Of a DNA stretch of 64,000 nucleotides, positions 2,490 through 48,039 are shown piece after piece. Position 1 is the first letter of the stretch, and each line of letters starts with the position of its first letter. The notes beneath the pieces are model-generated. The model did not search any database. It saw only the letters and a program-made list of their open reading frames with translations, and was not told the origin of the DNA. Origin of the DNA: Gammaproteobacteria bacterium MOLA455 (GTDB lineage Bacteria > Pseudomonadota > Gammaproteobacteria > Pseudomonadales > Porticoccaceae); the NCBI GenBank assembly GCA_000511875.1, contig AZIN01000001.1:999332-1063331 (forward strand). Reading direction: 5' to 3'. Made by a program: the position numbers and the translations under genes.

Positions 2490-3764
2490 ATGAACTCAAC
2501 CAGCATCAAGCAGGCACTGTTAAACCGCCGCATGTTGATCTGTATCTTTACCGGTTTTGCCTCTGGCATGCCGCTCTATTTACTGATCTCGTTAGTGCCG
2601 GCCTGGCTGCGATCCGAGGGCGTCGGCCTAAAAGAAATCGGTTTCTTTGCCCTGATCGGCCTGCCCTACACCTGGAAATTTTTCTGGTCGCCGCTGCTCG
2701 ATCGCTATCGCTTAGCCATTCCCGGTTTAAGCAAGTTTGGCTTTGGTTTTGGTTTTGGCGGTGGCTTACGCCGCGGCTGGATGCTCGCCACTCAGATCGG
2801 TTTATTACTGTCGATTGGCGCCCTGGGCTTTTTTAACCCCAACACCGATATCTGGAGCATCGCCTGGCTCTGCCTGCTAATCGCTTTTTTAAGCGCCACG
2901 CAAGATATTGTCCTCGACGCCTACCGCCGTCAGATACTGCCAGACCAGGAACTGGGTCTGGGCAATTCGATTCATGTGAACGCTTACCGGGTCGCTGGTT
3001 TAGTCCCCGGCTCCCTGTCACTGATACTAGCCGATAGCCTGCCTTGGCAATCCGTGTTTATGGTTACCGCAGCCTTTATGTTGATCGCTATTGTGATGAC
3101 TCTGAGCATTGCTGAGCCCAAGGCCGATGCTCGCCATCCCACTACTTTGAATCAAGCTATTGTTGATCCCTTTAAAGAATTCTTTTCTCGCCAAGGTGTG
3201 CAACAGGCCTGCCTGATTTTGGCCTTTATGCTGCTCTATAAACTCGGCGACAGCATGGCCACCGCGCTGGCGACACCGTTTTATTTGGATATGGGTTTCA
3301 CCAAGACTGAGATCGGCCTGATTGCCAAACATGCAGCGCTCTGGCCCATGATTGTCGGAGGTATTTTGGGCGGCATCTTGATGCTTAAGATCGGCATCAA
3401 TCGCGCTCTCTGGCTGTTTGGCTTGGTACAGATTATATCGATTCTCGGCTTTGCTCTGCTCGCGCGAGTGGGTGAAGGGCTGTGGCTGCTGGGGCTGGTG
3501 ATTAGCTTTGAATATCTCGGCGTCGGTCTCGGCACCGCCGCCTTTGTCGCCTTTATGGCGCGCTCTACCCATCCGGCCTTTGCTGCCACCCAGCTGGCGC
3601 TATTTACTGCCCTGACCGCAGTGCCGCGCACCCTGGCCAGTTCCGTTACTGGAATTATTGTCGAAGGGGTGGGCTGGGAAAATTTCTTTTATGTCTGCAC
3701 CCTGCTGGCCATTCCAGGGATGTTGCTATTGTTTAAAGTGGCGCCCTTCAATAAAGAGCAATAA
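2490..3764 (+). CDS. ampG: AmpG muropeptide permease (MFS)
   Basis: This 424-residue polytopic protein of about 12 segments has AmpG signatures: FTGFASGMPLYLL at the first segment, KFFWSPLLDRY near residue 65, and ATQDIVLDAYRRQIL near residue 135. AmpG imports GlcNAc-anhydroMurNAc peptides from the periplasm for cell-wall recycling. It sits close to ampE and ampD, the next steps and signalling partners of that pathway. A Gly/Phe-rich run (GFGFGFGGG) lies near residue 85. The stop codon (3762-3764) lies inside a seven-unit 10-bp tandem array. Confidence 0.93.
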   Translation: MNSTSIKQALLNRRMLICIFTGFASGMPLYLLISLVPAWLRSEGVGLKEIGFFALIGLPYTWKFFWSPLLDRYRLAIPGLSKFGFGFGFGGGLRRGWMLATQIGLLLSIGALGFFNPNTDIWSIAWLCLLIAFLSATQDIVLDAYRRQILPDQELGLGNSIHVNAYRVAGLVPGSLSLILADSLPWQSVFMVTAAFMLIAIVMTLSIAEPKADARHPTTLNQAIVDPFKEFFSRQGVQQACLILAFMLLYKLGDSMATALATPFYLDMGFTKTEIGLIAKHAALWPMIVGGILGGILMLKIGINRALWLFGLVQIISILGFALLARVGEGLWLLGLVISFEYLGVGLGTAAFVAFMARSTHPAFAATQLALFTALTAVPRTLASSVTGIIVEGVGWENFFYVCTLLAIPGMLLLFKVAPFNKEQ

Positions 3765-3820
3765 AGCGCAATAAAAAGCAATAAAGATCTATAAAGATCT
3801 ATAAAGATCTATAAAGAGCA
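3751..3820 (+). repeat. Seven tandem 10-bp units across the ampG stop codon
   Basis: Seven consecutive decamers share ATAAAG or ATAAAA followed by AGCA, CGCA, AGCA, ATCT (three times) and AGCA. The ampG stop TAA (3762-3764) lies in unit 2. The period is one DNA helical turn and is not divisible by three, so the array cannot extend a reading frame. No function is known. The three ATAAAGATCT units are identical, which points to recent slippage. Confidence 0.95.
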
Positions 3821-3851
3821 CAGTAGAGAGACGATCGCGACTTATCCAGTA

Positions 3852-4859
3852 TTAACTCGTCAATACGAGCAATGCAATCGCCACCAACCAACCGGTCATT
3901 GAGCGTCTAAATAAGGCGACTATATCGGCCACCTGAGAGAGGGCTTCGGTGTCGTCTAGGGCCTGATCGACCTCAGCAGAAGACTCTGCCTCATTCCTCG
4001 GCTGAATATTTAGCGCACCTAGCACACAGCGACGCAGCACATCAGCTGTAGACGTTGTCGGACAGAAAACCAATTCTTTTAAGGGCGCAGTGGCCTTGGA
4101 AAAGTCGCCCATCAAACCCAAAGTCAGAGCCAGAGCCCGCACTGGAATCCACTCAAGATACCAAAGTAAGCGGTTGGCCTCATCTGCAGTCGCTTGCTTG
4201 AGCATCTCACTCGAAGCGTCTTCGCTGCCCTGCTGTTCTTGCTCATGCTCTTCTTGCTCATGCTCTTCTTGCTCCTGATCTACTTGAACATCAGCCACCT
4301 GCAACTGCATATCCCCATGCAGCGCCAACAAACGGTAGGCTAAAGCCACAGGCGCACCCAAGAAAAAGAACCAGAACACCACCACAAAGCTGCGTTCAAA
4401 CATTCTGTAAGGCAGGCTCGCCGCCAGTTCGCGAAATAGCCCTGAGGCGTTGTCCGCTGAAACGGCGCGATGGCCAATATTAAATACCGCAGCATCATGA
4501 AACGCGGCCTGGAGATCATTGCGCTGGATATCTGACTGCAGCACGCCAACCTGAGCACCGAGATCGCCGCGGCCCAAGCAGTAGAGCAACACCGCCAACT
4601 CAACTAAGAATACCACTATGCCACTGCCCAAGTACCAAAGCAGCAGCTGCAAAACCAGCACCGGAATCAGTACAAAGGCCAAAACATTTAGTGTTGAATT
4701 ATTTTCCAAAGAGGGCAACTTGGACGACAATAACGTTGAGCACGACAGCTTGGCCAGTGCCCCGTGCCACTTCTGCACCCATAAATCACGCTGAATAAAA
4801 GCCAGCTGCCCATTGCTTTCCAACACTGCAATGGCGATTAAAATAATTAAAAAATGCAC
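3852..4859 (-). CDS. ampE: AmpE-like inner-membrane regulatory protein
   Basis: This 335-residue protein begins from GTG at 4859, with AGAGG 7 nt upstream. It has AmpE features: membrane segments near residues 60-95 and 155-175, the motif LLYCLGRGDLG, and the conserved SLPYRMFERSFVVVFWFFFLGAPVALAYRLL. AmpE is a membrane protein co-encoded with AmpD; its biochemical role in beta-lactamase signalling is unsettled. It lies 31 bp after ampD. A cytoplasmic acidic insert of Glu/His/Gln repeats near residues 193-208 comes from a 15-bp tandem repeat (4236-4280) and is not a family feature. Confidence 0.88.
   Translation of the reverse strand: MHFLIILIAIAVLESNGQLAFIQRDLWVQKWHGALAKLSCSTLLSSKLPSLENNSTLNVLAFVLIPVLVLQLLLWYLGSGIVVFLVELAVLLYCLGRGDLGAQVGVLQSDIQRNDLQAAFHDAAVFNIGHRAVSADNASGLFRELAASLPYRMFERSFVVVFWFFFLGAPVALAYRLLALHGDMQLQVADVQVDQEQEEHEQEEHEQEQQGSEDASSEMLKQATADEANRLLWYLEWIPVRALALTLGLMGDFSKATAPLKELVFCPTTSTADVLRRCVLGALNIQPRNEAESSAEVDQALDDTEALSQVADIVALFRRSMTGWLVAIALLVLTS
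4236..4280 (-). repeat. Three 15-bp tandem repeats inside ampE
   Basis: Two identical 15-bp units (4236-4250, 4251-4265) and a third with two changes (4266-4280) encode an acidic EQEEHEQEEH-type stretch in AmpE. The period is divisible by three, so the frame is kept. Confidence 0.9.
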
Positions 4860-4890
4860 TCTTTACCTCTGTGTTTGCATCGGCACAGAC

Positions 4891-5433
4891 TCAGCCGAGC
4901 AGTTGTTTGTAGTGGTCCCACTGAAACGCCTTTCCGGGATCGGTTTTGCGCCCAGGCGCAATATCACTGTGACCGACAATACGATCCGCACTCATTAACG
5001 GGTACCTGTCCAGAAGTGCTTTGCTGACGTCCGCCAGCACCTGATATTGCTCCTCAGTGTAAGGAATATGATCCGCCCCTTCCATCTCAATACCAATGGA
5101 AAAATCATTGCAGTTAAAGCGCTCCTCAAACTGAGACACCCCCGCATGCCAAGCCCGTTGATTAAAGCTGACAAATTGGGTGATCTTGCCATGGCGATCA
5201 ATCAGCAGATGGGAGGAGACTTTGAGGTGGCAGATCTCGGCAAAATAGGCATCCGCCTCGGGATCCAAGCAGTTAGTGAAAAACTCGCCAATATGACCAC
5301 CGCCAAACTGATTGGGCGGCAGGCTAATATTGTGGATCACCAGCAGACTAATATCCGCAATCTGAGGACGCTGGTCTGTATTAGGCGATGGCATTTGCGT
5401 GGCACAACTGAGCCAACCGTTTTCTATCTGCAT
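4891..5433 (-). CDS. ampD: 1,6-anhydro-N-acetylmuramyl-L-alanine amidase AmpD
   Basis: This 180-residue cytoplasmic zinc amidase cleaves the stem peptide from anhydro-muropeptides that AmpG brings in, which limits AmpR-driven beta-lactamase induction. The zinc ligands are visible as H34 (LLVIHNISLPP), the second His at about 155 and Asp at about 165 in GHSDIAPGRKTDPG. Glu in IGIEMEG is the expected catalytic region. The start at the ATG 5433 (MQIENGWL) puts the first ligand at residue 34 as in E. coli; the frame runs further upstream but overlaps the neighbouring gene. The gene lies 13 bp after the DUF1631 gene and just before ampE. Confidence 0.95.
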   Translation of the reverse strand: MQIENGWLSCATQMPSPNTDQRPQIADISLLVIHNISLPPNQFGGGHIGEFFTNCLDPEADAYFAEICHLKVSSHLLIDRHGKITQFVSFNQRAWHAGVSQFEERFNCNDFSIGIEMEGADHIPYTEEQYQVLADVSKALLDRYPLMSADRIVGHSDIAPGRKTDPGKAFQWDHYKQLLG

Positions 5434-5446
5434 AAGGGGCGATCTG

Positions 5447-8182
5447 CTAGCTCGCGACGGGCAATCCTTTAATTTGCGTGATTGCCTGTTTAATGGCTTT
5501 ATCAAAAAGATAGGAGTTATCGAGAACCGTGACAGTACCATTCAAAATATCCACCGCCAAGCGCGCTCTGTCGCGCTCAGCAATTAATTTGCCCTGATTA
5601 TCGACAAACACATACTTCCAAGAGGGCCCAACGATGCCCGCCAACTTGCCCCGTTTGTGGGCTTTGATATCACCGCCCAACTCGATCCAGCAGCCGGTTT
5701 TCATCGCTGCGAGTCGGCGCTGAGCTTCGCTGTCTATAGCCTCGGCATCATGCACAGCCTGTGCAATATTCTTCCCCGGCAGCTCGGTTTTCACTGCCGA
5801 CATCAATACCCGTTTTACCTCAGGTAGCAGGGCATCTTCAGCTTCGGAGCCCTTTCCATGACGGTATTTCCTGACCATTTTACTGGCCCACTTTTTCGCT
5901 GCCGGGGCGATCTCGGTGATCTTAGCCGAACGCTGGGGTTGTGGGTTGAGCCCCAAGGCATCGCTAAGCTGTTGGATCTGCAAACTGCGCTGCGCTATGT
6001 CAGTGGAGATATGCCCGAGGCGCAGATCCAGATGCTTAACTAACTCGCGACGATATTTAATATCTTTGTCACTGATCGGGCGACTGGCTAAATAGAGTAG
6101 GTTATCCAGCAATTTAAGCGCCACCTGCCAGTCTCGGCTGGCCTCGCCTTTTTGCTGATGGGCCATATGCAGCACCAGACACCAGCTGCGCTGCACAAAA
6201 TCGATAATCCCCTGGGCATGGTCGTTTCCCACCATGCGTTTGGCCACCTCTTGCTCTACCCGGGTGCGCGCCCAGTTGATCTTTTCACGGGCCGCTACAC
6301 GCTCGATCTCGCGCCTCTCAGAGACGGAAGTAACCCGTTTGTCGCGATCAATAATACTCATAAACTCACTGAGTATTAGGGGCAGATTGCGCTCTTCAAA
6401 GGAGTCCTCACTCATGGTGTTGGCGAGTTTGAGCATCTGCTGATAAATTTTATTGTCTTCGCAATCGCCCTGCTCTAGACCTATGGCATATTTGGCCATC
6501 TCATTAAACAGTCGCCGAATAGGATGATTTTGCTGGTCAAAGAGTAGCGGCTTTTTTAGCGCCAACTTGAGCATCGGAACCTCACAGCGATTAATCACCT
6601 GGCGCACTTCTGGTGCCACCACCATGGATTCACCAAAACTGGCAAAGGTATTTTCCACCACTTGAAAGACACTGGCATCATTGCGGTGCAGACGACCGCC
6701 CTCTGCAGATTCATTCCCGCGACCCAACTGCTTGATTGCCGCAGCCAGATCCCGTGTAATCTGGCCATTGCTGGCCAATTCACTGCCGTGGCTCACCAGA
6801 TGGTTGACATGTTTATTGATCTCGGCAAATAGCTGGGGTTTATCCATGCAGGGGCGCCTGGTCTGTGCCCTGCTCGATGCTGCCCTACCAGATGAAGAAC
6901 TGGATAAAGAGTCAGACGAAGAACTAGATAAAGAGTCAGATGAACTGCTCACTGCACTGTCGCCCTGCTGAGCTATTTCAAGCCGGGCATCCTGCTCCGC
7001 GTTTTCTAGCATCGAGCTGATTTTGGCCAGCAGTTCTGTCTGGATACGAGTATTGGCAATTAAAGGCTCATCCCCATAAGCTGGACTCTGCTCGTTCACC
7101 CCCTGTGCTGGAATGGAGCTCTCAGAACTCCTAGCACTCTTAGAACTCCTAGCACTCTCAGAATCCAAATCAGTGGGTTCTGCAGCATCAGGAATAGGTT
7201 TATTACTGGCAAGCCTGGGCTCTTTTTGGTCATTATGGTCCCTGTGCTCTTGATCCCTGTGCTCTTGGTCCCTGTGCTCTTGATCCCTGTGCTCTTGGTC
7301 CCTGTGCTCTTGATCCCTGTGCTCTAATTCCTGCAGTGCTGCCTGTTTAACCTCAGTCTTATCCACAGAGGGTTTTGGTCGCGGTGACCTCTGGTCAGTC
7401 CCGGTGCTCTCGACTAATTCAAAGCCAGCCTCCGCCAGCTGGTCAATCGCCAGGCAGAGCATCTCGCCATAGGACTGATCAAAGCAGACTTCAGCAAAGA
7501 TCTTGACCAGCTCCAACTGCACTTCAAGGGCGATAACATCATCATCTAGGGCTTTGGCAAACGCCTCAAGCAGAGCATCCGGTGACAGCGGCAGTCCGCT
7601 GTGACTGTAGCCACTCTGATTAATAAGCGATGTAAAACGCCCCTCCAGCTCATAGAGCTCACTGCCCAGAGCCTCGCGCACCGAACTGGAACTATTATCC
7701 AAGGCAATCATTACCTCGAGATCCTCATGCTCGACGAGCTTGAGACTGTCGCCGGCACCGCGAGCTGAGCGCCCTTTTGCCTTCGGACTTTTGCTTGCAG
7801 CCACAGTTTCCGCACTGTTCTCGACGGCCATAAACTGCGCAGTCCGGCCGCTTATATCCTGAGAAAGATCCGATAGCGTTGAATTAGATCCCGGTGAGTT
7901 AGATCCCGGTGAATTAGATAGCAGAGACCCAGGCAGCGAAAGTGGCTGCAGTGCGCTGTCGATGGTGCGCCACTCAATCTCTGCGCCTTGCAGTCGCAGC
8001 AGTCGCTGGGTGTCAAAATAGAGCGTTTGGAGACGGTTGCTGGGGGCCTTTTCCGCCAGTGCGGTGAGTTTGGCGCTGGCAAGTGGCTGGAATTTATCAA
8101 AGGCAGCCGCAAGATGTTGCTGGCAGCAATGCCTCAACGACGTTAGCAGCTGTTGCTCTGTGTGATGAGATTCCTTGCTCAT
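5447..8182 (-). CDS. DUF1631 family protein, 911 residues, function unknown
   Basis: The N-terminal region (SLRHCCQQHLAAAFDKFQPL) and the C-terminal half (KPLLFDQQNHPIRRLFNEMA, then a C-terminal small beta-rich domain around KTGCWIELGG) fit the DUF1631 family, typical of gammaproteobacteria. No enzymatic motif or membrane segment is seen. It is probably cytoplasmic. Residues from about 80 to 460 are low-complexity linker in large part, with four separate tandem repeats: SPGSN units, SARSS units, six EHRDQ-type units and Ser-rich SSSSSDSL units. It lies upstream of ampD-ampE on the same strand, so probably shares a transcript. Family assignment is likely; function cannot be stated. Confidence 0.8.
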   Translation of the reverse strand: MSKESHHTEQQLLTSLRHCCQQHLAAAFDKFQPLASAKLTALAEKAPSNRLQTLYFDTQRLLRLQGAEIEWRTIDSALQPLSLPGSLLSNSPGSNSPGSNSTLSDLSQDISGRTAQFMAVENSAETVAASKSPKAKGRSARGAGDSLKLVEHEDLEVMIALDNSSSSVREALGSELYELEGRFTSLINQSGYSHSGLPLSPDALLEAFAKALDDDVIALEVQLELVKIFAEVCFDQSYGEMLCLAIDQLAEAGFELVESTGTDQRSPRPKPSVDKTEVKQAALQELEHRDQEHRDQEHRDQEHRDQEHRDQEHRDHNDQKEPRLASNKPIPDAAEPTDLDSESARSSKSARSSESSIPAQGVNEQSPAYGDEPLIANTRIQTELLAKISSMLENAEQDARLEIAQQGDSAVSSSSDSLSSSSSDSLSSSSSGRAASSRAQTRRPCMDKPQLFAEINKHVNHLVSHGSELASNGQITRDLAAAIKQLGRGNESAEGGRLHRNDASVFQVVENTFASFGESMVVAPEVRQVINRCEVPMLKLALKKPLLFDQQNHPIRRLFNEMAKYAIGLEQGDCEDNKIYQQMLKLANTMSEDSFEERNLPLILSEFMSIIDRDKRVTSVSERREIERVAAREKINWARTRVEQEVAKRMVGNDHAQGIIDFVQRSWCLVLHMAHQQKGEASRDWQVALKLLDNLLYLASRPISDKDIKYRRELVKHLDLRLGHISTDIAQRSLQIQQLSDALGLNPQPQRSAKITEIAPAAKKWASKMVRKYRHGKGSEAEDALLPEVKRVLMSAVKTELPGKNIAQAVHDAEAIDSEAQRRLAAMKTGCWIELGGDIKAHKRGKLAGIVGPSWKYVFVDNQGKLIAERDRARLAVDILNGTVTVLDNSYLFDKAIKQAITQIKGLPVAS
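6891..6938 (-). repeat. Two 24-bp tandem repeats encoding Ser-rich linker
   Basis: Two 24-bp units differing at two bases, followed by a partial third, encode the SSSSSDSL repeats of the DUF1631 protein on the minus strand. Confidence 0.85.
7121..7156 (-). repeat. Two 18-bp tandem repeats in the DUF1631 gene
   Basis: Units CTCAGAACTCCTAGCACT and CTTAGAACTCCTAGCACT lie back to back and encode SARSSK/SARSSE on the minus strand. Confidence 0.85.
7237..7326 (-). repeat. Six 15-bp tandem repeats in the DUF1631 gene (EHRDQ units)
   Basis: Six 15-bp units alternate between GGTCCCTGTGCTCTT and GATCCCTGTGCTCTT; the last base differs in the sixth. The array therefore looks like a 30-bp pair amplified three times. 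It encodes consecutive EHRDQ pentapeptides, a charged and probably disordered linker. Confidence 0.95.
7881..7925 (-). repeat. Three 15-bp tandem repeats in the DUF1631 gene (SPGSN units)
   Basis: Units at 7881-7895, 7896-7910 and 7911-7925 (the last degenerate) encode SNSPGSNSPGSN on the minus strand. Confidence 0.85.
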
Positions 8183-8438
8183 TACCTGCCATCCTCATGG
8201 CGCGACTCTAGTTTTGAGTCTCTACTGCCTCTACTGGACGACCGGCTATATGCTCATTCAGTAATAACCGGCTAATTAATCGTTCAAGTATGGACCTTTT
8301 TGAACCAGTTCACATAAAAAAACGCGGCTAAATTTTCTCGGCAACAAATAACCCCCTATTCATTGCTGCTATAATCTCGGCCATCGACTGAAAGCCAGCC
8401 CGGCAAGGCTTTCAGCAACAGAGTATGACCACCTAAAA

Positions 8439-9380
8439 ATGATGATAGAGACGCCAATGGCCGACAGCAAACAGGCTCCAATGCCAACAGTATCCAGCGA
8501 CCTTCTCAAGGCAATTGCCGCCGATATTCCCCACTGTGTGGCCCGTGCCCTCGCGGAAGATATTGGCAGTGGCGATATTACCGCCCAGCTGATCCCGCAA
8601 CAGCAGCGCGCCACGGCAGTGGTAATCTGCCGTGATCCGGCGGTGATCTGCGGACGCCACTGGGTCGATGAGGTATTTCGCCAGTTGGACAGCGCTGCGA
8701 CCGAGCAGACCGATGGATCCCAAGAGAGAACGCAGGTCGAATGGCATATTAATGAAGGGGACAGTGTCAGCCCCAACCAATCGCTCTTTACCCTGCGCGG
8801 CAATACCAGGCTGTTGTTAACCGGCGAGCGCGCCGCACTGAATTTTTTGCAGACGCTCTCCGCCACCGCCACCAGCGCTCGTCAATACGCCGATATCAGC
8901 TTAAACAGCGCCAACAGCCAGATTAAAATACTCGATACCCGAAAAACCCTGCCCGGCCTGCGCCTGGCACAAAAATATGCCGCGGCAGTGGGCGGCTGCC
9001 AAAATCATCGCATTGGTCTCTATGACGCTTTTCTGATCAAGGAAAACCATATAGCCGCTTGTGGGGGAATCGGCAAAGCCATAGCCAAAGCTCGAGAGAT
9101 CGCCGCGGATAAGCTGGTGGAAGTTGAGGTGGAAACTCTCGAGGAATTGCATCAGGCACTGGCCGCCAGAGCAGATGTCGTGATGTTGGATAACTTCTCA
9201 GCGGCGGACATAGAGGCGCTGTCATCCATAGATTTGGGTGAGACTAAGATTGAGGTGTCCGGAGATATTACCGAAGAGAAAATTAAGGCCTACAGCCATG
9301 GGGCGGTAGACTTTATTTCATCTGGGAGTATTACCAAACATATTCGCGCGGTGGATCTGTCGATGCGCTTGGTGGGTTAG
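8439..9380 (+). CDS. nadC: Nicotinate-nucleotide pyrophosphorylase (carboxylating), quinolinate phosphoribosyltransferase
   Basis: The 313-residue protein converts quinolinate and PRPP to nicotinate mononucleotide in NAD synthesis. It shows the family motifs [12 protein letters not shown] near residue 40, [16 protein letters not shown] near 130, [19 protein letters not shown] with active-site Arg/Lys near 160, [20 protein letters not shown] near 185, and EVEVETLEE then VMLDNF. Several starts are possible (8439, 8442, 8457); 8457 has a GAGAC purine run upstream and gives a length nearer the family norm. It is divergent from the DUF1631-ampD-ampE group, matching the usual ampD-nadC neighbourhood, and ends at a strong terminator. 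Confidence 0.96.
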
Positions 9381-9396
9381 GCATTTAGAACGGCAT

Positions 9397-9423: not shown

Positions 9424-9435
9424 AAACATGCTAAA

Positions 9436-9873
<438 letters not shown>

Positions 9874-14452: not shown

Positions 14453-15187
14453 GTGAATTCAACAGCATCCAATTCAGGCTCTGGCTCTCTATCTAGTTCT
14501 CCATCTAGCTCCAGTTCTCAATCCAGTTCTCAATCCAGTTCTCTGATTATCGGCTTAACCGGTGGTATCGGCAGTGGCAAAAGCACTGTGGCTGAGGCCT
14601 TTCGTCAGCTCGGAATTGAAACCGTGGACGCGGATCAGGCTTCTCGCGCGGTGGTTGAGCCGGGCATGCCGGCGCTGGCCGCAATCGAGGAACGCTTTGG
14701 CAGCCAGATTATCCTGGGGGACGGCAATTTGGATCGTGGCGCTCTGAGGCAAATTATCTTTAGCGACCCAGATCAGAAACTCTGGCTCGAGTCACTGCTG
14801 CACCCGCTAATTCGCGACTGGATTGTGCAGCGCTTAGAGGCCGCCACCAGTCCCTATGTGATTCTCGAATCACCGCTGCTTTTTGAAACCGATCAACATC
14901 AGCTGGTCAATAAGACTGTTCTGGTGGACTTGCCGGTGGCACTGCAAATAGACCGTGCCTGCGCGCGGGATGGCAATCAAGCCGAGCAAATTCAACGGAT
15001 TATTGATGCTCAAATGCCCCGTGAGGAAAAGCTATCACGCGCAGATATAGTGTTGGATAATGCACAGCCTTTGGAGAGTCTCGCAGACCGCGTGACTGCA
15101 GTTCACCAGACTCTGTTACAACTTTGTAAGGGCTCTGCAACTCTCTCCAAAGCAAACTCGGCCAGTCAGGTACAAACTAATGAGTAG
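14453..15187 (+). CDS. coaE: Dephospho-CoA kinase CoaE with Ser-rich N-terminal extension
   Basis: CoaE phosphorylates dephospho-CoA, the last step of coenzyme A synthesis. The conserved part starts at IIGLTGGIGSGKSTVA (P-loop near residue 40), followed by VDADQASR near 58, HPLIRDWI and the lid region ESPLLFE. Ahead of it lie about 30 residues almost entirely of Ser and Gln, read from a GTG at 14453; they come from 12-bp tandem repeats (14510-14545) and are absent from the usual 200-residue enzyme. No ATG, TTG or other GTG lies between, and no good ribosome site is seen at the GTG. It overlaps yacG by 8 bp; zapD, usually between them, is absent. Confidence 0.93.
   Translation: MNSTASNSGSGSLSSSPSSSSSQSSSQSSSLIIGLTGGIGSGKSTVAEAFRQLGIETVDADQASRAVVEPGMPALAAIEERFGSQIILGDGNLDRGALRQIIFSDPDQKLWLESLLHPLIRDWIVQRLEAATSPYVILESPLLFETDQHQLVNKTVLVDLPVALQIDRACARDGNQAEQIQRIIDAQMPREEKLSRADIVLDNAQPLESLADRVTAVHQTLLQLCKGSATLSKANSASQVQTNE
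14510..14545 (+). repeat. Three 12-bp tandem repeats in the 5' end of coaE
   Basis: TCCAGTTCTCAA occurs twice exactly, then TCCAGTTCTCTG. They encode SSSQ repeats in the N-terminal extension of CoaE and stop where the conserved kinase begins. Confidence 0.92.
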
Positions 15188-15422
15188 CGTCACCAAATTA
15201 AATTGCCCAACCTGTAAAACCCAAATTGAGTGGACAGATAAGTTCCCCTTTCGTCCATTTTGCTGTCAGCGTTGCCAGCAGATTGATTTTGGTGGCTGGG
15301 CTCAGGAGAGTTTTGCCATTAAAGGCGCGGCCCTAATAGATCCAGAAGTCATGGATTCTGATCAGTTGGCTCAGGAGTTGCTCAATGCGGGAATGATTGA
15401 TCCAGATTTATTGGATTCTTAA
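15180..15422 (+). CDS. yacG: DNA gyrase inhibitor YacG (zinc protein)
   Basis: This 80-residue protein has the YacG zinc ribbon: CPTC near residue 9 and CCQRC near 28, followed by the conserved QIDFGGWAQE. YacG binds GyrB and inhibits gyrase in E. coli; the Cys4 zinc site and the acidic tail (here MIDPDLLDS) are known family features. It overlaps the coaE end by 8 bp, so translation is probably coupled. Confidence 0.93.
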   Translation: MSSVTKLNCPTCKTQIEWTDKFPFRPFCCQRCQQIDFGGWAQESFAIKGAALIDPEVMDSDQLAQELLNAGMIDPDLLDS

Positions 15423-15444
15423 AGACTGCTCACTGTTGGGTTTT

Positions 15445-15508
15445 AGAGCTTTTGAATTTAAGAGCTTTTGAATTTAAGAGCTTTTGAATTTTAGAGCTTT
15501 TGGATTTT
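15445..15508 (-). repeat. Four 16-bp tandem units across the mutT stop codon
   Basis: AGAGCTTTTGAATTTA occurs twice, then two variants, at 15445-15460, 15461-15476, 15477-15492 and 15493-15508. The mutT stop (15491-15493) lies at the junction of units 3 and 4, so unit 4 encodes the end of MutT and the others spread into the space towards yacG. Confidence 0.95.
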
Positions 15509-15919
15509 AAGACCCTGCTCAGCAAGACGCTGAAGAATTGGCTGATTACCCGCCGGGAAACACAGGTCATTATCTGCTGCTGGCGCCAGCAACTGCTCCA
15601 AACTCAACCAGCGACATTGCTGCCCTTCTTTGCCCTGGGCATTGCCAGAAAAAGCATCTACTTGCCAGATATCCAACAAAACTTTTTTATCCACATAGTC
15701 ATGCTCCACCTGCATATAGGGTTGGGCATGGGTGACATGGATATCAATCTCTTCAAATAGCTCTCGAGCCAGTGCGGCGTAGGGGCTTTCACCTACTTCA
15801 ACTTTGCCCCCGGGAAATTCCCAGAGTCCGCCCTGATGGAGATGCTCCCCACGTCGTGAGATAAATATCTGCTGATCCGGACCGACGATAATCGCGGCCA
15901 CTACATGGACGCGCTTCAC
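15491..15919 (-). CDS. mutT: 8-oxo-dGTP diphosphatase MutT (Nudix)
   Basis: This 142-residue Nudix hydrolase has the complete Nudix box from GGKVEVGE to RELFEEIDI, with the REL-FEE catalytic core near residues 52-60. MutT removes oxidised dGTP from the nucleotide pool. The start is a GTG at 15919 (MKRVHVVAAII), which matches the family N-terminus. It is convergent with yacG and directly downstream of argJ and secA, as in the E. coli secA-mutT order. Its last codons lie in a 16-bp tandem array. Confidence 0.93.
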   Translation of the reverse strand: MKRVHVVAAIIVGPDQQIFISRRGEHLHQGGLWEFPGGKVEVGESPYAALARELFEEIDIHVTHAQPYMQVEHDYVDKKVLLDIWQVDAFSGNAQGKEGQQCRWLSLEQLLAPAADNDLCFPAGNQPILQRLAEQGLKIQKL

Positions 15920-31440: not shown

Positions 31441-31474
31441 CTTTGTAGCTCTGCTCTCTTTCGTTAAGTTGTTT

Positions 31475-31513
31475 ATCTAGGCTCTTTATCTAAGCTCTTT
31501 ATCTAAGCTTTAA
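31475..31513 (-). repeat. Three 13-bp tandem units across the mraY stop codon
   Basis: On the plus strand the units are ATCTAGGCTCTTT (31475-31487), ATCTAAGCTCTTT (31488-31500) and ATCTAAGCTTTAA (31501-31513). The mraY stop (31499-31501) falls at the junction of units 2 and 3. Each unit repeats the stop region of mraY in the short gap before murD. Confidence 0.9.
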
Positions 31514-32581
31514 GGTAGCCAGGCCAATCAGCACTAGGACCACGGTAATAATCCAAAAACGCACGATCACTCGGGGCTCTGGCCAACCCTTTAATTCGTA
31601 ATGGTGATGCAGTGGTGCCATACGGAAAATACGCTTGCCAGTGAGCTTGAATGAGGCCACCTGCAAAATCACCGACAGGGTTTCTATAACAAACACACCG
31701 CCCATAATGGCCAGCACAACTTCCTGGCGAATAATTACAGCAATCACGCCCAGAGCTGCGCCCAGTGCCAGGGAACCTACGTCCCCCATAAAGACCATGG
31801 CGGGATAGGTGTTAAACCACAGAAAACCGAGGCCAGCGCCGCAGAGTGCGCCGGTAAAAATCAGTAACTCGCCTGCGCCGCTGATATAGGGAATATGCAG
31901 ATAGCTGGCAAACTGATAGTTGCCTGTCAAATAGGCCATGATGCCGAGCGCGCCGGCCACCAATACTGTGGGTAATATCGCCAAACCATCGAGGCCATCG
32001 GTAAGGTTTACCGCATTGCTGGTGCCGACAATCACAAAGTAGGTGAAGAGGATATAAAAGGGTCCCAGATTTAATGCGACATTTTTAAAGAAGGGTACGA
32101 TCAAGTCTAACTCCGCTGCAGACTGGGCATGGGAGAACAAAAATACGGCTGCTGCCAGACCACAGAGGGATTGCCAAAAATATTTCCAGCGTGCTGGCAG
32201 GCCGCGAGGATTTTTGTGTACCACTTTGCGATAGTCATCGACCCAGCCGATCAGACCGAAGCTGAAAGTGACTGCCAGAACAACCCAGATATAGACATTT
32301 TCCAGATTGGCCCACAACAATGTGCTGATAAACATCGCCATTAGGATCAACGCGCCGCCCATGGTTGGGGTGCCCGCTTTGCTCAGATGACTCTGAGGGC
32401 CATCGTTGCGAATTGCCTGCCCCATTTGCAAGCTGTTGAGCAGAGCGATCATTCGTGGCCCCAGCACCCAACAGATTGTCAGCGCCGTGATCACCGAAAA
32501 AATACCGCGCAGGGTGAGATACTTCACCGCTGAGAACGGGCTGTAGAATTGACTCAAATATTCAGCTAGCCACACCAACAT
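31499..32581 (-). CDS. mraY: Phospho-N-acetylmuramoyl-pentapeptide transferase MraY
   Basis: This 360-residue integral membrane enzyme makes lipid I from UDP-MurNAc-pentapeptide and undecaprenyl phosphate. It has about ten membrane segments, [11 protein letters not shown] near 70, [21 protein letters not shown] near 113, the catalytic region [14 protein letters not shown] near 190 and the cytoplasmic [20 protein letters not shown] near the C-terminus. The ATG shares a base with the murF stop. Its stop codon lies in a 13-bp tandem repeat. Confidence 0.98.
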
Positions 32582-38452: not shown

Positions 38453-38920
38453 CTACCAAGACAGATTCTTCAATGCATCCGACATATTGTCTCGGTCGAG
38501 AAGCATGTTGCGGTACGTTGCCTGTGATTTCTCACGCTCAGTGTTCCAGTTCTCTTCGGACCAGATTTCGAGACGCTGACTGCGACCTACCAAGACCAAT
38601 TTTTTCTCCAACTGTGCATAGCCGCGCAACTCCGGCGGAATTAGAATGCGACCACTGCCATCGACCTGAAGATCTTTAGCTTGGCCGACAACAAAGCGAC
38701 TCAACATCTCGGCAAGCTCATCGAGAGCAGGCAAGGCGGCAACTTTTTCTTCGAATTTTTTCCATTCAGGCAGCGGTGACAACATAAGGCAGGTAGACTT
38801 CATATCGATGGTGATAACCAGATCACCAGCGCAGAGTTCGTCGAGCAGGGGACGGTAGCGGGTCGGAATTGCCATCCGGCCTTTTGTGTCCATATTGATT
38901 GGATCGCTACCCTTAAACAC
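38453..38920 (-). CDS. mraZ: Transcriptional regulator MraZ
   Basis: This 155-residue protein consists of two SpoVT/AbrB-like halves, each with the DxKGRxxxP motif: MDTKGRMAIPTRYR near 10 and VDGSGRILIPPELRGY near 88. MraZ is known to repress the dcw cluster by binding repeats at its own promoter. It is the first gene of the cluster. The start is a GTG at 38920 with AAGGGG upstream. Candidate binding repeats lie at 38994-39010. Confidence 0.96.
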   Translation of the reverse strand: MFKGSDPINMDTKGRMAIPTRYRPLLDELCAGDLVITIDMKSTCLMLSPLPEWKKFEEKVAALPALDELAEMLSRFVVGQAKDLQVDGSGRILIPPELRGYAQLEKKLVLVGRSQRLEIWSEENWNTEREKSQATYRNMLLDRDNMSDALKNLSW

Positions 38921-39667: not shown

Positions 39668-39673
39668 GGCGCG

Positions 39674-39767: not shown

Positions 39768-40350
39768 ACCATCAGCCCGCTCAATCTCCCAGTGAAGTCA
39801 TGGGGACCCTTTGCGATCAATCAGGGCCCGCTTATAAGTTTGTTCTTTTCAGATTGAGAGAGCGCTTTGCTTGAGCGATAGCGAGTTGCGCGAACGCTGA
39901 AAATAACAAACTTATGGGACCGATCGCAAAGAGTCTTTATGGCTTTGCCTGCGCTCAACCAACAGCCCCCTCAATCTCCCAGTGGAGTCATGGGGACCCT
40001 TTGCGGTCAATCAGGGCCCGCTTATAAGCTTGTTCTTTTCAGATTGAGAGAGCGCTCTGCTTGAGCGATAGCGAGTTGCGCGAACGCTGAAAATAACAAA
40101 CTTATGGGACCGATCGCAAAGAGTCTGTATGGCTTTGCCTGCGCTCAACCAACAGCCCCCTCAATCTCCCAGTGGAGTCATGGGGACCCTTTGCGGTCAA
40201 TCAGGGCCCGCTTATAAGCTTGTTCTTTTCAGATTGAGAGAGCGCTCTGCTTGAGCGATAGCGAGTTGCGCGAACGCTGAAAATAACAAACTTATGGGAC
40301 CGATCGCAAAGAGTCTGTATGGCTTTGCCTGCTCTCAACCAACAGCCCCC
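39768..40350. repeat. Three tandem 190-bp units, each a long imperfect palindrome
   Basis: Units occupy 39781-39970, 39971-40160 and 40161-40350. Units 2 and 3 differ at one base; unit 1 differs from unit 2 at five. Thirteen bases before unit 1 (39768-39780) resemble the unit end, so the array is about 3.1 copies. Within unit 1, 39805-39818 pairs with 39922-39935 (13 of 14) and 39834-39852 pairs with 39897-39915 (18 of 19), giving a long hairpin around a GC-rich core. The period is not divisible by three and no frame persists, so it is not coding. No transposase is present. It could be a miniature element, a structured RNA array or a recombination product. Confidence 0.95.
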
Positions 40351-40356
40351 TTGGAA

Positions 40357-40620: not shown

Positions 40621-40674
40621 GGCACAGCCTCCTGGCTATCTAATTGGGCCTAATAATGTAGTTTGCGCGCATCT

Positions 40675-43600: not shown

Positions 43601-44547
43601 ATCTCGCCACCGGAACCGGTGCCGGCACCAGCATAGGGAGAGATAGCCGTTGGGTGATTATGGGTCTCGACTTTCATTAGCAGATGCACTGGCTCTTGGC
43701 TGTAGCCATAGAGCTTGGTTGCCGGATCCGGATAGAAACGGCCACCCTCGGTGCCTACTACTACGGCAGCGTTATCCGAGTAGGCGGAGAGAACGTTCTC
43801 ACCGTTGACCTTATAGGTATTGCGAATCATGCCAAACAGGCTGTGCTCTTGGTCTTCACCATCGAGGGTCCAGCTGGCATTAAATATTTTGTGACGGCAG
43901 TGCTCTGAGTTGGCCTGAGCAAACATCATCAATTCCACATCGGTGGGATTGCGCTTGAGACCGTTGAAGCTCTCCACCAGATACTCTATTTCATCTTCGG
44001 CCAGTGCCAGACCCAGCTCGGAATTGGCTGTTCTCAGGGCATCGACACCGCCGCCCAATGTATCGACACTGGTGACTGGAGCCGGCTCTTGATGGCTAAA
44101 TAATATCTCTGCCTGCTGCAGCCCATCGAGCACTGTTTCAACCATGCGGTCATGAAGTTCAGCGCCTAAGTCGGCAAGCTGCTGTGCACTGAAGGCCTCT
44201 TCGCCCTGAACATAATAGGCGGTGCCGCGCTCGACTCTGACAACCTGATCTAGGCCGCAGTTGTGGGCTATATCCGTGGCCTTGCTCGACCAGGGTGAAA
44301 TGGTTCCAGGTCTTGGCACCACTAAAATAAGCTGTCCTTTGATGGACGTCTTTTCCTCTCGTGGACCATAGGTCAGCAGCGCTTGGAGCGTTTCCACTGC
44401 GCTCTCAGAGAGCGGCTGAGTCAGCTCGGCAAAATGCACAAATTCAGCGTAGACTGACACCGTAGAGGGCACCACTTGCTGCAGAGTTGAAAGGAGTTTT
44501 TTACGTCTAAACGCAGACAGAGAAGGTGCGCCGGTGAGGATCATCAT
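40675..44547 (-). CDS. purL: Phosphoribosylformylglycinamidine synthase PurL (single-chain)
   Basis: This 1290-residue enzyme catalyses the fourth step of purine synthesis, using ATP and glutamine. It is the large fused form: an N-terminal PurS-like domain, a linker, two AIRS-type halves (with [29 protein letters not shown] near 300) and a C-terminal glutaminase. The glutaminase Cys is in [13 protein letters not shown] near 1137 and the His region is in [11 protein letters not shown] near 1190. The start is ATG at 44547 or the next codon at 44544, which better matches [13 protein letters not shown]. It is divergent from mltF, a common gammaproteobacterial arrangement. Confidence 0.98.
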
Positions 44548-44749
44548 AGAGGCAGTGCTCGCAAAACTTTCGAATGAGAAAGCGCGTTATTCTAGCTGAA
44601 AAAACTGTCGGTAGGCAGATAGAATTGAGTAAAGCCTGTACAATTCTGTCAGCTACAGGCGTTTTGAAGTAATTATTTACTAAGATGACCCTTGAGTAGT
44701 CGAAAGCGGCCGTTTAGAGCAACATTTCAGGGATCTTTTGGAGAGCACT

Positions 44750-46225
44750 TTGCTCGGACCTATAACAAAATTTGCAACTCGATTCCCAGTCAGCGCAAGA
44801 CGCGCTGGCACGCGCATCACTTTGGCCTTTATCACCGCATTATTCCTCTTCCATTTTAGTAGCAGTGCCCGTGTCAGCGACCTCCAGCAGGTGCAACTAA
44901 GCGGCACATTGCAGATGCTCACTGTCGACGGCCCAACCACTTACTATGAAGACGGCAGGGGTAAAAATGGCCTTGAGTATTTGCTTGCCAAAGCCTTTGC
45001 TGAGAGCCTCGGTGTAGAGCTGGTGGTGCGTTCAAAGCCTAGCCTGAAAGCCCTGCTGCTTTCAGTTGGCGGGCCCGAAGGCAATTTTGCCGCCGCCAAC
45101 ATTACCATCACCGAAAGCCGCAGAAAGTCGCTGCAATTTAGCGATCCCTACCTGCAGGTGACACAATATTTGGTTTACCGCCGTGGCTCCGCGCGGCCAC
45201 AGTCACTGGCAAGTCTCGACGGCGACCTGCTGATAGTTAAGGGCTCTTCTCACAGTGAAAAACTCAAATACTGGGCCAGGCAATATCCAACTTTAACGTG
45301 GCGTGAAAACGCCAACAGTGAAATGAGCGAACTGCTGCGTATGGTTCACGACAGTGAGATCGATTACACCGTGGTGGACTCTCTGGCCTATTTGGTAAGC
45401 CGGCATATCTACCCCCAAGTGCGTCGGGCCATCGATATTTCCGAGCCCCAATCTGTGGCCTGGGCCTTTCCCCGTCATGGCGACGGCACCTTACTAGCGG
45501 CGGCCAATCGCTTTCTCAGTGACTACAGTGCCAGCGGTGAATTAGCGGCATTAAAAAATGACCTGCTGGAACAGGCCGACAATTTCTCTGTGGCTGGATC
45601 TCAGCGCTTTGGTCGGCTAGTCAATAGCAGGCTGCCAAATTATGAGCCGCTGTTTAAGCTGGCGGCAGAGCAGTTTGGGTTTGACTGGCACCTGCTGGCT
45701 GCCGTGGCCTATCAAGAATCACACTGGAATCCAAAGGCCCGCTCCCCCACCGGCGTTCGCGGCTTAATGATGCTGACCCTGACCACCGCCCGGGAAATGA
45801 ATATAACCAATCGTCTCGACCCACAGCAAAGTCTGACTGGCGGCGCCGCGTATCTGTCGAAACTCCGCTCGCGCCTTCCGGATCGCATCAGCGAACCAGA
45901 CCGCACGCTGCTGGCGCTGGCGGCCTACAATGTCGGCTTTGGACACATGGAAGATGCGCGCATTCTCACTCAACGCAATGGACAGAATCCGGATTTATGG
46001 GAGCATGTGCGACAGCACTTACCCAAACTGAGCAATAAAAAGTATTACCCAACACTTAAATACGGCTATGCGCGGGGCCATGAGCCAGTGATCTATGTGG
46101 ACAATATTCGCTACTACACACGCTATCTGGAACTACATGAGCTCTCTCAGCAACTGGAGGTGCAAAATGAAGAAGCGCTGCAGCCAAGCAGCGAATGGGA
46201 AGACTCAGCGCCCTCCTCTCTCTAA
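44750..46225 (+). CDS. mltF: Membrane-bound lytic murein transglycosylase MltF
   Basis: This protein of about 491 residues has an N-terminal membrane anchor or signal (TLAFITALFLFHF near 24-37), a periplasmic solute-binding-like domain (about 50-260; LTVDGPTTYYEDG, VVRSKPSLKALL) and a C-terminal lytic transglycosylase domain. The catalytic Glu is in AYQESHWNPKARSPTGVRGLMMLT near 320. It cleaves glycan strands to anhydro ends, the substrate for AmpG/AmpD recycling. No ATG is available; TTG at 44750 follows GGAGAG by about 6 nt, and TTG at 44738 is an alternative. Its stop lies in a 16-bp tandem array. Confidence 0.93.
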   Translation: MLGPITKFATRFPVSARRAGTRITLAFITALFLFHFSSSARVSDLQQVQLSGTLQMLTVDGPTTYYEDGRGKNGLEYLLAKAFAESLGVELVVRSKPSLKALLLSVGGPEGNFAAANITITESRRKSLQFSDPYLQVTQYLVYRRGSARPQSLASLDGDLLIVKGSSHSEKLKYWARQYPTLTWRENANSEMSELLRMVHDSEIDYTVVDSLAYLVSRHIYPQVRRAIDISEPQSVAWAFPRHGDGTLLAAANRFLSDYSASGELAALKNDLLEQADNFSVAGSQRFGRLVNSRLPNYEPLFKLAAEQFGFDWHLLAAVAYQESHWNPKARSPTGVRGLMMLTLTTAREMNITNRLDPQQSLTGGAAYLSKLRSRLPDRISEPDRTLLALAAYNVGFGHMEDARILTQRNGQNPDLWEHVRQHLPKLSNKKYYPTLKYGYARGHEPVIYVDNIRYYTRYLELHELSQQLEVQNEEALQPSSEWEDSAPSSL

Positions 46226-46284
46226 AGCCGGATCAATCTAAAGCCAGATCAATCTAAAGCCGGGCCAATCAATAGCCTGGCCAA
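46221..46284 (+). repeat. Four 16-bp tandem units across the mltF stop codon
   Basis: TCTAAAGCCGGATCAA (46221-46236), TCTAAAGCCAGATCAA (46237-46252), TCTAAAGCCGGGCCAA (46253-46268) and the degenerate TCAATAGCCTGGCCAA (46269-46284). The mltF TAA (46223-46225) is in unit 1. The array fills nearly the whole gap to the convergent tadA. Confidence 0.93.
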
Positions 46285-46293
46285 CCAAAAATC

Positions 46294-46767
46294 CTATAAT
46301 TTTAGCGCTTTTCCTGCGGCCCGCTTAGCGCGAAAAAAACCGCTCATAATCGCCCCGCACTCGTCCGCCAAAACACCCCCCTGCCATTCGATGGAATGGT
46401 TGTAGTGCGATTCATCCATCAGTCGCAACTGACTTTCCAAGGCGCCAGCGCGAGGCTCTCTGGCACCAAAAATAATCCTGCCAATACGGGCGTGAACCAT
46501 GGCGCCGACACACATGGTGCAGGGTTCAATAGTCACATAGAGATCGCAGCCACTCAGGCGATAGTTACCCAGTGCTGTGGCAGCGTTGCGCAGAGCAATA
46601 ATTTCAGCGTGGCCGGTGGGATCGCAACTGGTGATAGGCTGGTTGTAACCCTCGCCAATCACCTCGCCACCTTTGACCACCAGAGCGCCAACCGGCACTT
46701 CTCCCGCTGCCGCCGCCTGTTGCGCAAGCACCAGGGCGCGACTCATAAAATCTTCTTCTACAGACAC
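46294..46767 (-). CDS. tadA: tRNA adenosine(34) deaminase TadA
   Basis: This 157-residue zinc deaminase converts A34 to inosine in tRNA-Arg(ACG). The zinc site is complete: GHAEIIAL (His and catalytic Glu near 53-55) and EPCTMCVGAM (Cys pair near 83-86). EVPVGALVV near residue 23 is also conserved. The start is a GTG at 46767, with AAAGG about 8 nt upstream. It is convergent with mltF and divergent from epmB. Confidence 0.95.
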   Translation of the reverse strand: MSVEEDFMSRALVLAQQAAAAGEVPVGALVVKGGEVIGEGYNQPITSCDPTGHAEIIALRNAATALGNYRLSGCDLYVTIEPCTMCVGAMVHARIGRIIFGAREPRAGALESQLRLMDESHYNHSIEWQGGVLADECGAIMSGFFRAKRAAGKALKL

Positions 46768-46895
46768 ATCAACACCTTTACTGGAAACTCACTATGTAGC
46801 CACGCGTCAATCGCGTAAACTCTCCGACTTAATTCTGGCTTAGAGCGGCCAATAGACGCCATCAATAGCTAAAGCCAAAGGACTCAACATTCACC

Positions 46896-47921
46896 ATGCC
46901 AACGATAACAAGCAATCTCAGCCCGGCACAACCGATCAGCATTAGCCCTGACTGGAAAGTGCAACTGAGCCAAGCGGTCATTTCCACAGATGAACTGCTG
47001 AGCTATTTAAATCTGGCCCCAGAGCAGCTCTCTACTAGCCAGCAGGCAGCAGCAGAATTTGCCCTCAAAGTGCCCAAGCCCTTTATCCAGCGCATGGAAC
47101 CGGGAAATCCTAAAGATCCATTACTACTTCAGGTACTGCCTGTCGGCGCCGAAATGCAGCAGAGTCCAGACTACAACAAGGACCCCCTAGAAGAAAGTAA
47201 GCACAATCCTATCGCGGGCATTGTACATAAGTACGCCAATCGACTGCTGCTAGTTATTAGCCCAGCCTGTGCGATCAACTGCCGCTACTGTTTTCGTCGC
47301 CACTTTCCCTACAGTGAAAATCGTCAGAGCAAGCAGCAGTGGCAATCTGCTCTGGACTATATTCGCAGTGACGAAAACATCAATGAAGTGATTTATAGTG
47401 GCGGCGATCCATTGGCCGCCAATGATAATTTTCTCGGCTGGCTAACTACCGAAATTGCCGAGATAGCCCATATCAAACGACTGCGTATTCACACCAGACT
47501 GCCGGTGGTGATTCCAGCGCGTATAGATCAGGGATTTTTAAAATGGGCCACAGCCACCAGACTCAAACCCATTGTGGTGCTGCATATTAATCATGCCAAT
47601 GAGATTGACGCCGAGGTTGCCAGGACCATCAACAAATTAAAAGAGGCTGGTATGCAAGTGCTTAACCAGTCGGTGCTGCTGCGCGGGGTTAATGACAGTG
47701 CCGTGACGCTGGCGGAATTGAGTGAACGATTATTTGATTGTGGCGTATCGCCTTACTATTTACATCTTTGCGATCCGGTTGCGGGAGCCCAACATTTTGA
47801 TCTAGACGACAGTGTCGCCAAGCAGATTTACAGCGAGTTACAGTGCTTATTACCGGGGTTTTTAGTGCCGAAATTGGTGCGCGAAATACCTAACAGGCAA
47901 TCAAAGACTCTTATTATTTAG
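46896..47921 (+). CDS. epmB: EF-P beta-lysylation protein EpmB (lysine 2,3-aminomutase-like radical SAM)
   Basis: This 341-residue radical-SAM protein has the cluster motif CAINCRYCFRRHFPYS near residues 126-140, YSGGDPLAANDNFL near 168 and the PLP-lysine region around VSPYYLHLCDPVAGAQHF near 287. EpmB makes (R)-beta-lysine for modification of elongation factor P by EpmA. The 341-residue length fits EpmB rather than the longer catabolic lysine aminomutases (KamA). The genes efp and epmA, often adjacent, are not in the window. Confidence 0.92.
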   Translation: MPTITSNLSPAQPISISPDWKVQLSQAVISTDELLSYLNLAPEQLSTSQQAAAEFALKVPKPFIQRMEPGNPKDPLLLQVLPVGAEMQQSPDYNKDPLEESKHNPIAGIVHKYANRLLLVISPACAINCRYCFRRHFPYSENRQSKQQWQSALDYIRSDENINEVIYSGGDPLAANDNFLGWLTTEIAEIAHIKRLRIHTRLPVVIPARIDQGFLKWATATRLKPIVVLHINHANEIDAEVARTINKLKEAGMQVLNQSVLLRGVNDSAVTLAELSERLFDCGVSPYYLHLCDPVAGAQHFDLDDSVAKQIYSELQCLLPGFLVPKLVREIPNRQSKTLII

Positions 47922-47991
47922 CCTTCAGTTAAACACTGTCTAAAACCTTATAAAACAGCCTAATAGATACCGCGCACCGATTTTCAGCATT

Positions 47992-48039
47992 GCTACAAAT
48001 TAAATGGGCTACAAATTAAATGGGTTACAAATTACATGC
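47992..48039 (-). repeat. Three 16-bp tandem units across the VOC gene stop codon
   Basis: GCTACAAATTAAATGG occurs twice (47992-48007, 48008-48023), followed by GTTACAAATTACATGC (48024-48039). The stop of the VOC gene (48032-48034) lies in the last unit, so each copy repeats a TAA-bearing segment on the minus strand. Confidence 0.93.

Follow-up and report, generated by a model that had tools for sequence, protein, structure and literature searches.

A 64,000-nt stretch of the chromosome of Gammaproteobacteria bacterium MOLA455 (hereafter the window; the genome is referred to as G000) contains short tandem arrays that span the stop codons of five genes, namely ampG, a NUDIX gene, mraY, mltF and a VOC gene. 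These arrays are probably minisatellites, comparable to the variable-number tandem repeat (VNTR) loci of bacteria, which are unstable and tolerated at the 3′ ends of genes. The initial annotation had reported five arrays at stop codons, and Tandem Repeats Finder, with which the window arrays were called, recovered all of them with the stop codon inside each (Table 1). They consist of head-to-tail units in the range of roughly 10-60 bp that is typical of VNTRs and minisatellites.

Table 1. Short tandem arrays in the window, with the genes that they touch
Array	Position	Strand	Units	AAGAGC	Gene context
ampG	3748..3820	+	10-bp units (CAATAAAGAGC type); finder periods 10/20 bp	present	crosses stop of ampG (2490-3764) and extends into convergent spacer; partner AmpE-like gene (3852-4859; weak Pfam match)
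NUDIX	15441..15512	-	16 bp x 4.4, TTTAAGAGCTTTTGAA on + strand	present	crosses stop of NUDIX gene (15491-15919, minus); convergent partner YacG gene (15180-15422)
mraY	31472..31509	-	13 bp x 2.9, AGATAAAGAGCCT type on gene strand	present	crosses stop of mraY (31499-32581, minus)
mltF	46221..46290	+	16-bp units TCTAAAGCCGGATCAA; three overlapping finder rows	absent	crosses stop of mltF (44738-46225); convergent partner TadA-like deaminase gene (46294-46767)
VOC	47992..48038	-	16 bp x 2.9, GCTACAAATTAAATGG on + strand	absent	crosses stop of VOC gene (48032-48412, minus); convergent partner radical-SAM gene (46896-47921)
AmpE-like	4231..4286	-	15-bp units QEQEEHEQEEHEQ, in frame	present	within AmpE-like gene
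DUF1631, first	6889-6944	-	period 24 bp		within DUF1631 gene
DUF1631, second	7119-7163	-	period 18 bp		within DUF1631 gene
DUF1631, third	7236-7325	-	period 30/15 bp		within DUF1631 gene
DUF1631, fourth	7880-7919	-	period 15 bp		within DUF1631 gene
12-bp array	14510..14543	+	12 bp x 2.8		before or at start of gene ending 15187 (start codon uncertain, 14453 or 14588)

The Pfam content of the five genes is MFS, NUDIX, MraY, SLT with SBP_bac_3, and glyoxalase/VOC, respectively, and the first and fourth products are AmpG-like and MltF-like, names that were assigned from these domains. Four of the five arrays lie between convergent genes, and the fifth lies between mraY and murD (Pfam), which are on one strand. 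As the convergent spacers of the four span only 68-110 bp, nearly any array there would be near a stop.

Comparison of copy numbers among close strains had been proposed as a check, and a comparison with a close relative showed that lengths do vary. Between G000 and G047, the nearest relative by the compared proteins, 9 of the 11 window arrays (score >=60, period up to 100; flanks 88-100% identical) differ in length, as expected of VNTRs, in which copy number varies among close relatives; draft assemblies may misstate the number of copies. The spacers of G000 and G047 measure 87 and 61 bp after ampG, 68 and 28 bp after the NUDIX gene, 58 and 44 bp after mraY, 68 and 20 bp after mltF, and 110 and 110 bp after the VOC gene; spacer lengths are given because the mltF array of G047 was scored as length 0 through anchoring. 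The length differences of the coding arrays are all multiples of 3, the array of the AmpE-like gene being 30 bp shorter in G047 and the four arrays of the DUF1631 gene differing by +12, +45, -60 and 0 bp. At the orthologous gene ends of more distant congeners, the arrays have other or diverged units, for instance units of 15 bp after ampG (G001) and of 16/32 bp (G036), 16 bp (G043) and 23 bp (G060) after mltF. By eye, the units at mltF look related between G000 and G036, and thus not all of these arrays are independent. Local duplication and slippage would be the means by which they form and change length.

To place the arrays relative to stop codons, we used a sample of G000 (the window and 36 further stretches, 769,476 bases together) and six congeners sampled at 200-400 kb each, all stretches outside the window being <=20 kb. 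Genes were called by a purpose-written script with a hexamer score in place of curated annotation, with uncertain start codons, and the position tests used arrays with a score >=50 and periods of 7-60. Five of the sampled genomes (G000, G018, G047, G036 and G046) belong to what we call the group, and two (G011 and G019) are distant congeners. In a midpoint-rooted tree of two proteins, 13 genomes of the group and G016 are separated from 19 others with a split support of 1.00, while the support for the group without G016 is just 0.23.

The G000 sample contains 83 arrays, of which 32 are genic and 32, 15 and 4 are in tandem, convergent and divergent spacers, respectively. Almost half of them (41/83) lie <=30 bp from a stop and 24 overlap it. 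Spacer arrays number 15.1 per 10 kb of convergent, 7.3 of tandem and 2.2 of divergent spacer, the low last value being expected if promoters and starts exclude arrays. We then redistributed the 51 spacer arrays within their own spacers, allowing them to reach up to one period inside a 3′ end and keeping them 15 bp clear of starts. Under this null, 36 arrays are <=30 bp from a stop where 35.1 are expected (p 0.40), and 24 span the stop where 21.1 are expected (p 0.15). Without the start clearance, the expectation for spanning falls to 18.4 (p 0.02). Forbidding any overlap with genes lowers it to 8-11 (p near 0), but this version is unfair because duplications across a stop are harmless. Among the four readings offered by the initial annotation, namely backup stops, transcript 3′-end elements, a repair or replication process at gene ends and tolerated slippage, the last one fits these numbers best.

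A duplication that straddles the stop would spare the gene-side copy and hence leave the protein intact, so gene ends should tolerate arrays, and convergent spacers would offer no promoter or ribosome-binding site to harm. Within genes, the same process would leave chiefly arrays whose units are multiples of 3. The period is divisible by 3 in 29/32 coding arrays and in 15/51 spacer arrays of the G000 sample. We infer that tolerance is the reason for the position of the arrays at gene ends.

Could the arrays instead act in RNA? The proposal that they are transcript 3′-end elements, that is, terminators or RNA-stabilising structures between convergent genes, agrees with their location after stops and with the folding of two of the seven gene-end transcripts examined, the plus-strand transcript of 15180-15422 (z -2.34) and that of mltF (z -2.69), both below -2. 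The overall comparison did not bear it out. The median folding z was -0.66 for 41 array ends and -0.52 for 150 of 329 control ends (p 0.33), and hairpins resembling terminators were no commoner at array ends (2/41) than at control ends (28/329), so that the stable hairpin with a U run that marks an intrinsic terminator is not raised above other gene ends. Units and copy numbers also turn over among close species. We therefore regard a role as 3′-end elements as very unlikely. The suggestion of backup stops found weak support: a second in-frame stop follows within <=10 codons at 31/50 array-spanned stops and at 772/1686 others (p 0.03), but shuffles of the array-end sequence reach 50%. Neither the folding nor the second-stop result calls for a function.

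A stop-context motif, AGAGC, was considered and rejected. At 1975 array-free ends it occurs 47 times in the 12 bases starting with the stop and 27.0 times on average in windows further down, but this excess arises because the stop codon's own letters supply it, and the count is 27 once the stop codon is left out. The only stretch scanned against Rfam, L052 18900-19500, which holds an 18-bp array, gave no match at E <=1. As a separate observation, an 11-bp unit (GTAAAGATCAT type) is repeated 7.7 times at L036 16064-16148 in a divergent spacer, an unusual place, and may be a regulatory site.

Observations on position, on density and on unit sequence weigh against the view that the arrays are simply minisatellites tolerated at gene ends. 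As for position, the test within own spacers disagrees with one in which arrays were placed across all spacers of the five genomes, where stop-spanning arrays in convergent spacers are in 1.3- to 3.1-fold excess depending on the rules. For convergent spacers <=300 bp, 27/35 arrays span a stop, against 14.1, 17.4 and 21.2 expected when the permitted intrusion is one period, one period plus 6 bp, and two periods (p <0.003, 0.003 and 0.03, respectively). The corresponding figures for tandem spacers <=300 bp are 18/54 against 10.1, 13.8 and 17.6 (p 0.007, 0.11 and 0.52). With one-period intrusion, 25/31 convergent arrays against 16.1 and 17/34 tandem arrays against 10.3 span the stop in spacers <=150 bp, and 28/40 against 9.1 and 18/59 against 7.7 in spacers <=1 kb, the longest of which may conceal missed genes or regulatory DNA. 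Array coverage of convergent spacers likewise declines with distance from the stop, the values being 10.7% at <30 bp, 7.4% at 30-80 bp and 4.6% beyond. Although 32 of the 45 stop-spanning arrays of the five genomes intrude by <=one period and 43 by <=1.44 periods, 13 intrude by more than one period and two of these by more than 1.44, which the strict argument from harmless duplication does not predict. The own-spacer version for the five genomes gives expectations of 22.7-26.3 for convergent and 18.3-23.4 for tandem spacers, with no p <0.05.

The initial annotation had held that anchoring at stops is hard to explain by random slippage alone. This was not supported by the own-spacer test and found some support in the all-spacer test. 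Part of the residual excess could come from the units themselves, since stop triplets occur at 0.087 per base in array units and at 0.067 in shuffles, and stop-rich units may trap the end of a reading frame inside an array. Most of the attachment to stops is as harmlessness predicts and the remainder is unexplained; a genuine excess of arrays at stops beyond tolerance is possible.

The density of spacer arrays differs markedly between the group and the distant congeners. We counted 109 arrays (those assigned to a spacer, period 7-60) in 180,449 spacer bases of the five group genomes and 4 in 31,236 bases of G011 and G019, a ratio of 4.7 (p 1e-4; 4.2 without G000), the outside value coming from two genomes and four spacer arrays. 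If slippage had risen generally, coding arrays should be denser too, but these number 82 in 1,768,701 bases of the group and 18 in 366,358 bases of the two congeners (ratio 0.94). At loci picked around the five genes, the densities per 10 kb in the group and in the rest are 17.1 and 3.2 for spacers and 0.8 and 0.16 for coding sequence; these loci are biased by the choice of genes, and thus it is not firm that coding arrays are unaffected. Forty loci of mltF homologs, mainly from Vibrio, Photobacterium and other gammaproteobacteria, hold 2 spacer arrays and 3 coding arrays, in 38,312 and 238,359 bases, respectively.

Loss of the single-stranded DNA exonucleases Exonuclease I, exonuclease VII (ExoVII) and RecJ could destabilise repeats. 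We thus weighed whether loss of such a repeat-stabilising nuclease, or of a repair gene, raised slippage in the group, as its spacer density might suggest. The large subunit of ExoVII was matched in 46/50 genomes but not in G012, G040, G053 and G060; in G043 it was matched only as a piece below the cut-off, and G043, G053 and G060 are all drafts of the group. However, Exonuclease I was matched in 50/50 genomes, and RecJ in 46/50 (unmatched in G012, G013, G037 and G038). The five sampled group genomes have ExoVII and RecJ, and all eight misses are in drafts with >=80 contigs. All three enzymes are present in G000 itself, which leaves the tolerated-minisatellite reading without this source of instability. 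Loss of Exonuclease I, ExoVII or RecJ was accordingly rejected as the cause, and together with the flat coding density in the sampled stretches this makes an explanation by nuclease or repair loss unlikely. Apart from this question, the ExoVII large-subunit gene of G011 (G011:C1:366895-368182) appears fragmented over several frames, one fragment containing a TAA, through either damage or an assembly error.

The arrays also share a sequence, and simple slippage offers no explanation for it. Repeated copies of the hexamer AAGAGC occur in 34/212 arrays of the seven genomes, compared with 1.9 in shuffled units. It occurs in 25/112 spacer arrays (not wholly intragenic, period 8-60) and 11/78 coding arrays of the five group genomes, and in 0/5 and 5/17, respectively, of G011 and G019, while random spacer windows of equal length to the 112 arrays contain it 4.7 times on average and 12 at most. 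When units sharing a 10-mer are counted once, AGAGC is found in 14/86 spacer units (random windows: mean 3.4, maximum 10) and in 10/64 coding units (mean 3.1, maximum 7). By the number of tandem-triple loci in the five genomes, AAGAGC is first of 2080 hexamers with 12 against a mean of 0.28, and the next-best hexamer of its composition has 3; in G011 and G019, it ties for second place with 5 behind CTCAGC with 6. In the window, AAGAGC is present in three of the five gene-end arrays and in two coding arrays. Relative to the gene of the nearest stop, the 26/117 spacer arrays of the seven genomes with AAGAGC comprise 17 sense, 8 antisense and one divergent (p 0.11). Outside arrays, AAGAGC is not over-represented in the G000 sample (452 against 476.9 expected), nor is AAAGAGCC (20 against 21.1), and neither is thus over-represented as single copies in the manner of a DNA uptake sequence. 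The density difference and the AAGAGC core are real in the examined data and go beyond ordinary slippage.

The core is widespread. The triple pattern of AAGAGC was detected in 30/50 genomes of the genus, whereas the reversed control was detected in 6/50. All 13 genomes of the group are positive, and G016, G003, G007, G015, G020, G042 and G044 have none, the last six forming one branch of the tree. In the order, 80/293 genomes have the pattern and 22/293 have the reversed control, as counted by eye. Many AAGAGC arrays of SAR92 genomes share a longer core, AAGAGCCYTCAGC, followed by 4-7 bases, and this core is also found in at least 11 genomes of four other families (counted by eye).

Genes carry AAGAGCCYTCAGC in three readings. 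EPSA is the reading in DnaX (G011), in a FimV-like protein (G019), in a DUF6491-like protein (G019) that scores below the cut-off of that family, and in the product of a Pfam-less gene (G047). In G000, ESLQP or ESPQP is the reading in two proteins, one FimV-like and the other RuvB, where it stands at the end. Antisense, the core reads AEGS near the end of GyrA (G018). The genes with the 18-bp core repeat comprise FimV-like, DUF6491-like, DnaX, unnamed, RuvB and GyrA genes of five genomes (L243:8480-11101, L242:12263-12811, L228:10853-12778, L227:19639-19998, L035:13641-16241, L042:1476-2576 and L086:15746-18487). Among clusters of EPS in the FimV-like, DnaX, DUF6491-like and unnamed proteins, which were chosen by protein sequence alone and two of which are in one gene, the serine codon is TCA in 5/5, compared with 12/114 isolated EPS. 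The core further occurs in units of 17, 19 and 20 bp and in arrays after stops in G036 and in G000, the G000 array having a counterpart in G047.

The presence of AAGAGCCYTCAGC in genes in three readings as well as after stops points to a cause at the DNA level, and the three readings together with the TCA usage are poorly explained by chance convergence of proteins. Common descent, copying between loci or sequence-specific amplification could be the origin of the core. Arrays of AAGAGCCYTCAGC are found at several loci of G000, G019 and G047, so that one unit occupies unrelated loci as in transposed satellites, whether the arrays moved there or arose separately. As to the repair or replication process at gene ends that the initial annotation had considered, it is mostly unneeded to explain position, but the shared core suggests that a process with a sequence bias is active within genes and at gene ends alike.

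An alternative that we entertain tentatively is that a sequence-directed process, such as an enzyme, a replication block or copying from arrays, amplifies AAGAGC or AAGAGCCYTCAGC along with the 4-7 spacer bases, the gene-end arrays being its harmless products. The first rank of AAGAGC in tandem triples without enrichment elsewhere, its excess over the reversed control in genus and order, the TCA bias of the EPS clusters and the spread of the long core across readings, stops and unit lengths are in its favour. On the other hand, AAGAGC occurs in a minority of the spacer arrays and in none of those of the two distant congeners, where its rank in triples is also lower, and the mltF and VOC arrays lack it. 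Of the coding arrays with repeated AAGAGC, 12/14 have it in one sense frame, and therefore protein selection also acts. A search for an enzyme, which covered the three exonucleases only, gave no candidate; viral contigs had no match to the paired long core and plasmids none to a 72-base query. It is possible, if somewhat doubtful, that in SAR92-type bacteria and other families of the order AAGAGCCYTCAGC DNA is amplified sequence-specifically, seeding the arrays of fimV-like, dnaX, ruvB and gyrA genes and those after stops, with the window arrays as partly decayed or shortened outputs. Any open frame able to carry the core (EPSA, ESLQP or antisense AEGS) would then retain it, and after stops any unit length would survive. 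Under the reading that we prefer, unstable minisatellites tolerated at gene ends, this lineage would make or retain spacer arrays unusually often, and their formation would be biased toward sequences with the AAGAGC core.

A second array type, CGAGAAAACAGCCCTGAG, is present in G000 at L314/L320 (around G000:C1:1711512-1711607); G002, G011 and G019 also have arrays with units starting with CGAGAAAGCGC.

Among known systems, the arrays resemble bacterial VNTRs including the rnc-fpg1 locus of Mycobacterium tuberculosis, whose repeat is described as beginning 40 bp past the rnc stop (PMC2734929), in their short direct units, copy number varying among close relatives and location in a post-stop spacer. 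Unlike that locus as described there, many arrays here overlap the stop itself between convergent genes, and they are known from sequence alone. Like the repeats of archaeal Borg elements (PMC9879509), they are fast-evolving, arise independently, occur in spacers and genes and give amino-acid repeats where coding; they differ in residing on bacterial chromosomes, in being imperfect and in sharing a hexamer core instead of adenine enrichment, base-composition bias having been taken as a clue to the mechanism of the Borg repeats (PMC9879509). The TAACTGA repeats of marine Beggiatoaceae are another case in Gammaproteobacteria of one word in tandem at many spacers, but their 7-bp units are mostly just upstream of start codons and include 819 single copies (PMC4679880), whereas the units here are mostly 13-20 bp, are located at gene ends and in genes and show no single-copy excess of the core. 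In prokaryotic satellite families, too, related satellites occupy several places in one genome. In that survey, transposed non-coding families are given only for Leptospira interrogans and Methanocella conradii and have long repeats (PMC6749651), whereas the core here is 13 bp and found in several families of one order. REP/BIME elements (repetitive extragenic palindromes and bacterial interspersed mosaic elements) are described as dispersed palindromic units of 20-40 bp (PMC3733652); the spacer arrays here have direct units of 7-54 bp. Among the papers listed by our literature search, there was no description of repeats sharing an AAGAGC core or of SAR92/HTCC2207 tandem repeats, and among the matches listed for the core strings, the titles suggest unrelated animal and cell studies. 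A search directed at repeats common to unrelated genes likewise gave no paper.

The initial annotation had seen no such arrays in intergenic DNA elsewhere in the window apart from the 190-bp one. That was incorrect for the window as a whole, in which six more were found at a score >=60, five of them intragenic with periods of 15, 24, 18, 30 and 15, all divisible by 3 (Table 1). The DUF1631 gene (5447-8182) alone houses four arrays, three of which differ in length from G047, and is a candidate locus for strain typing. A 190-bp unit is repeated 3.1 times with 97% match at 39768-40351, between genes called as ending at 38920 and 40357, and differs from the short arrays in length and uniformity.

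These results indicate that repeats centred on stops require hardly any dedicated machinery at the stop codon, or none, as the harmlessness of the position explains most of the effect. The shared core occurs in several reading frames, in both coding and non-coding DNA and in different species and families, and how a bacterial minisatellite begins can thereby be tested with one short sequence.

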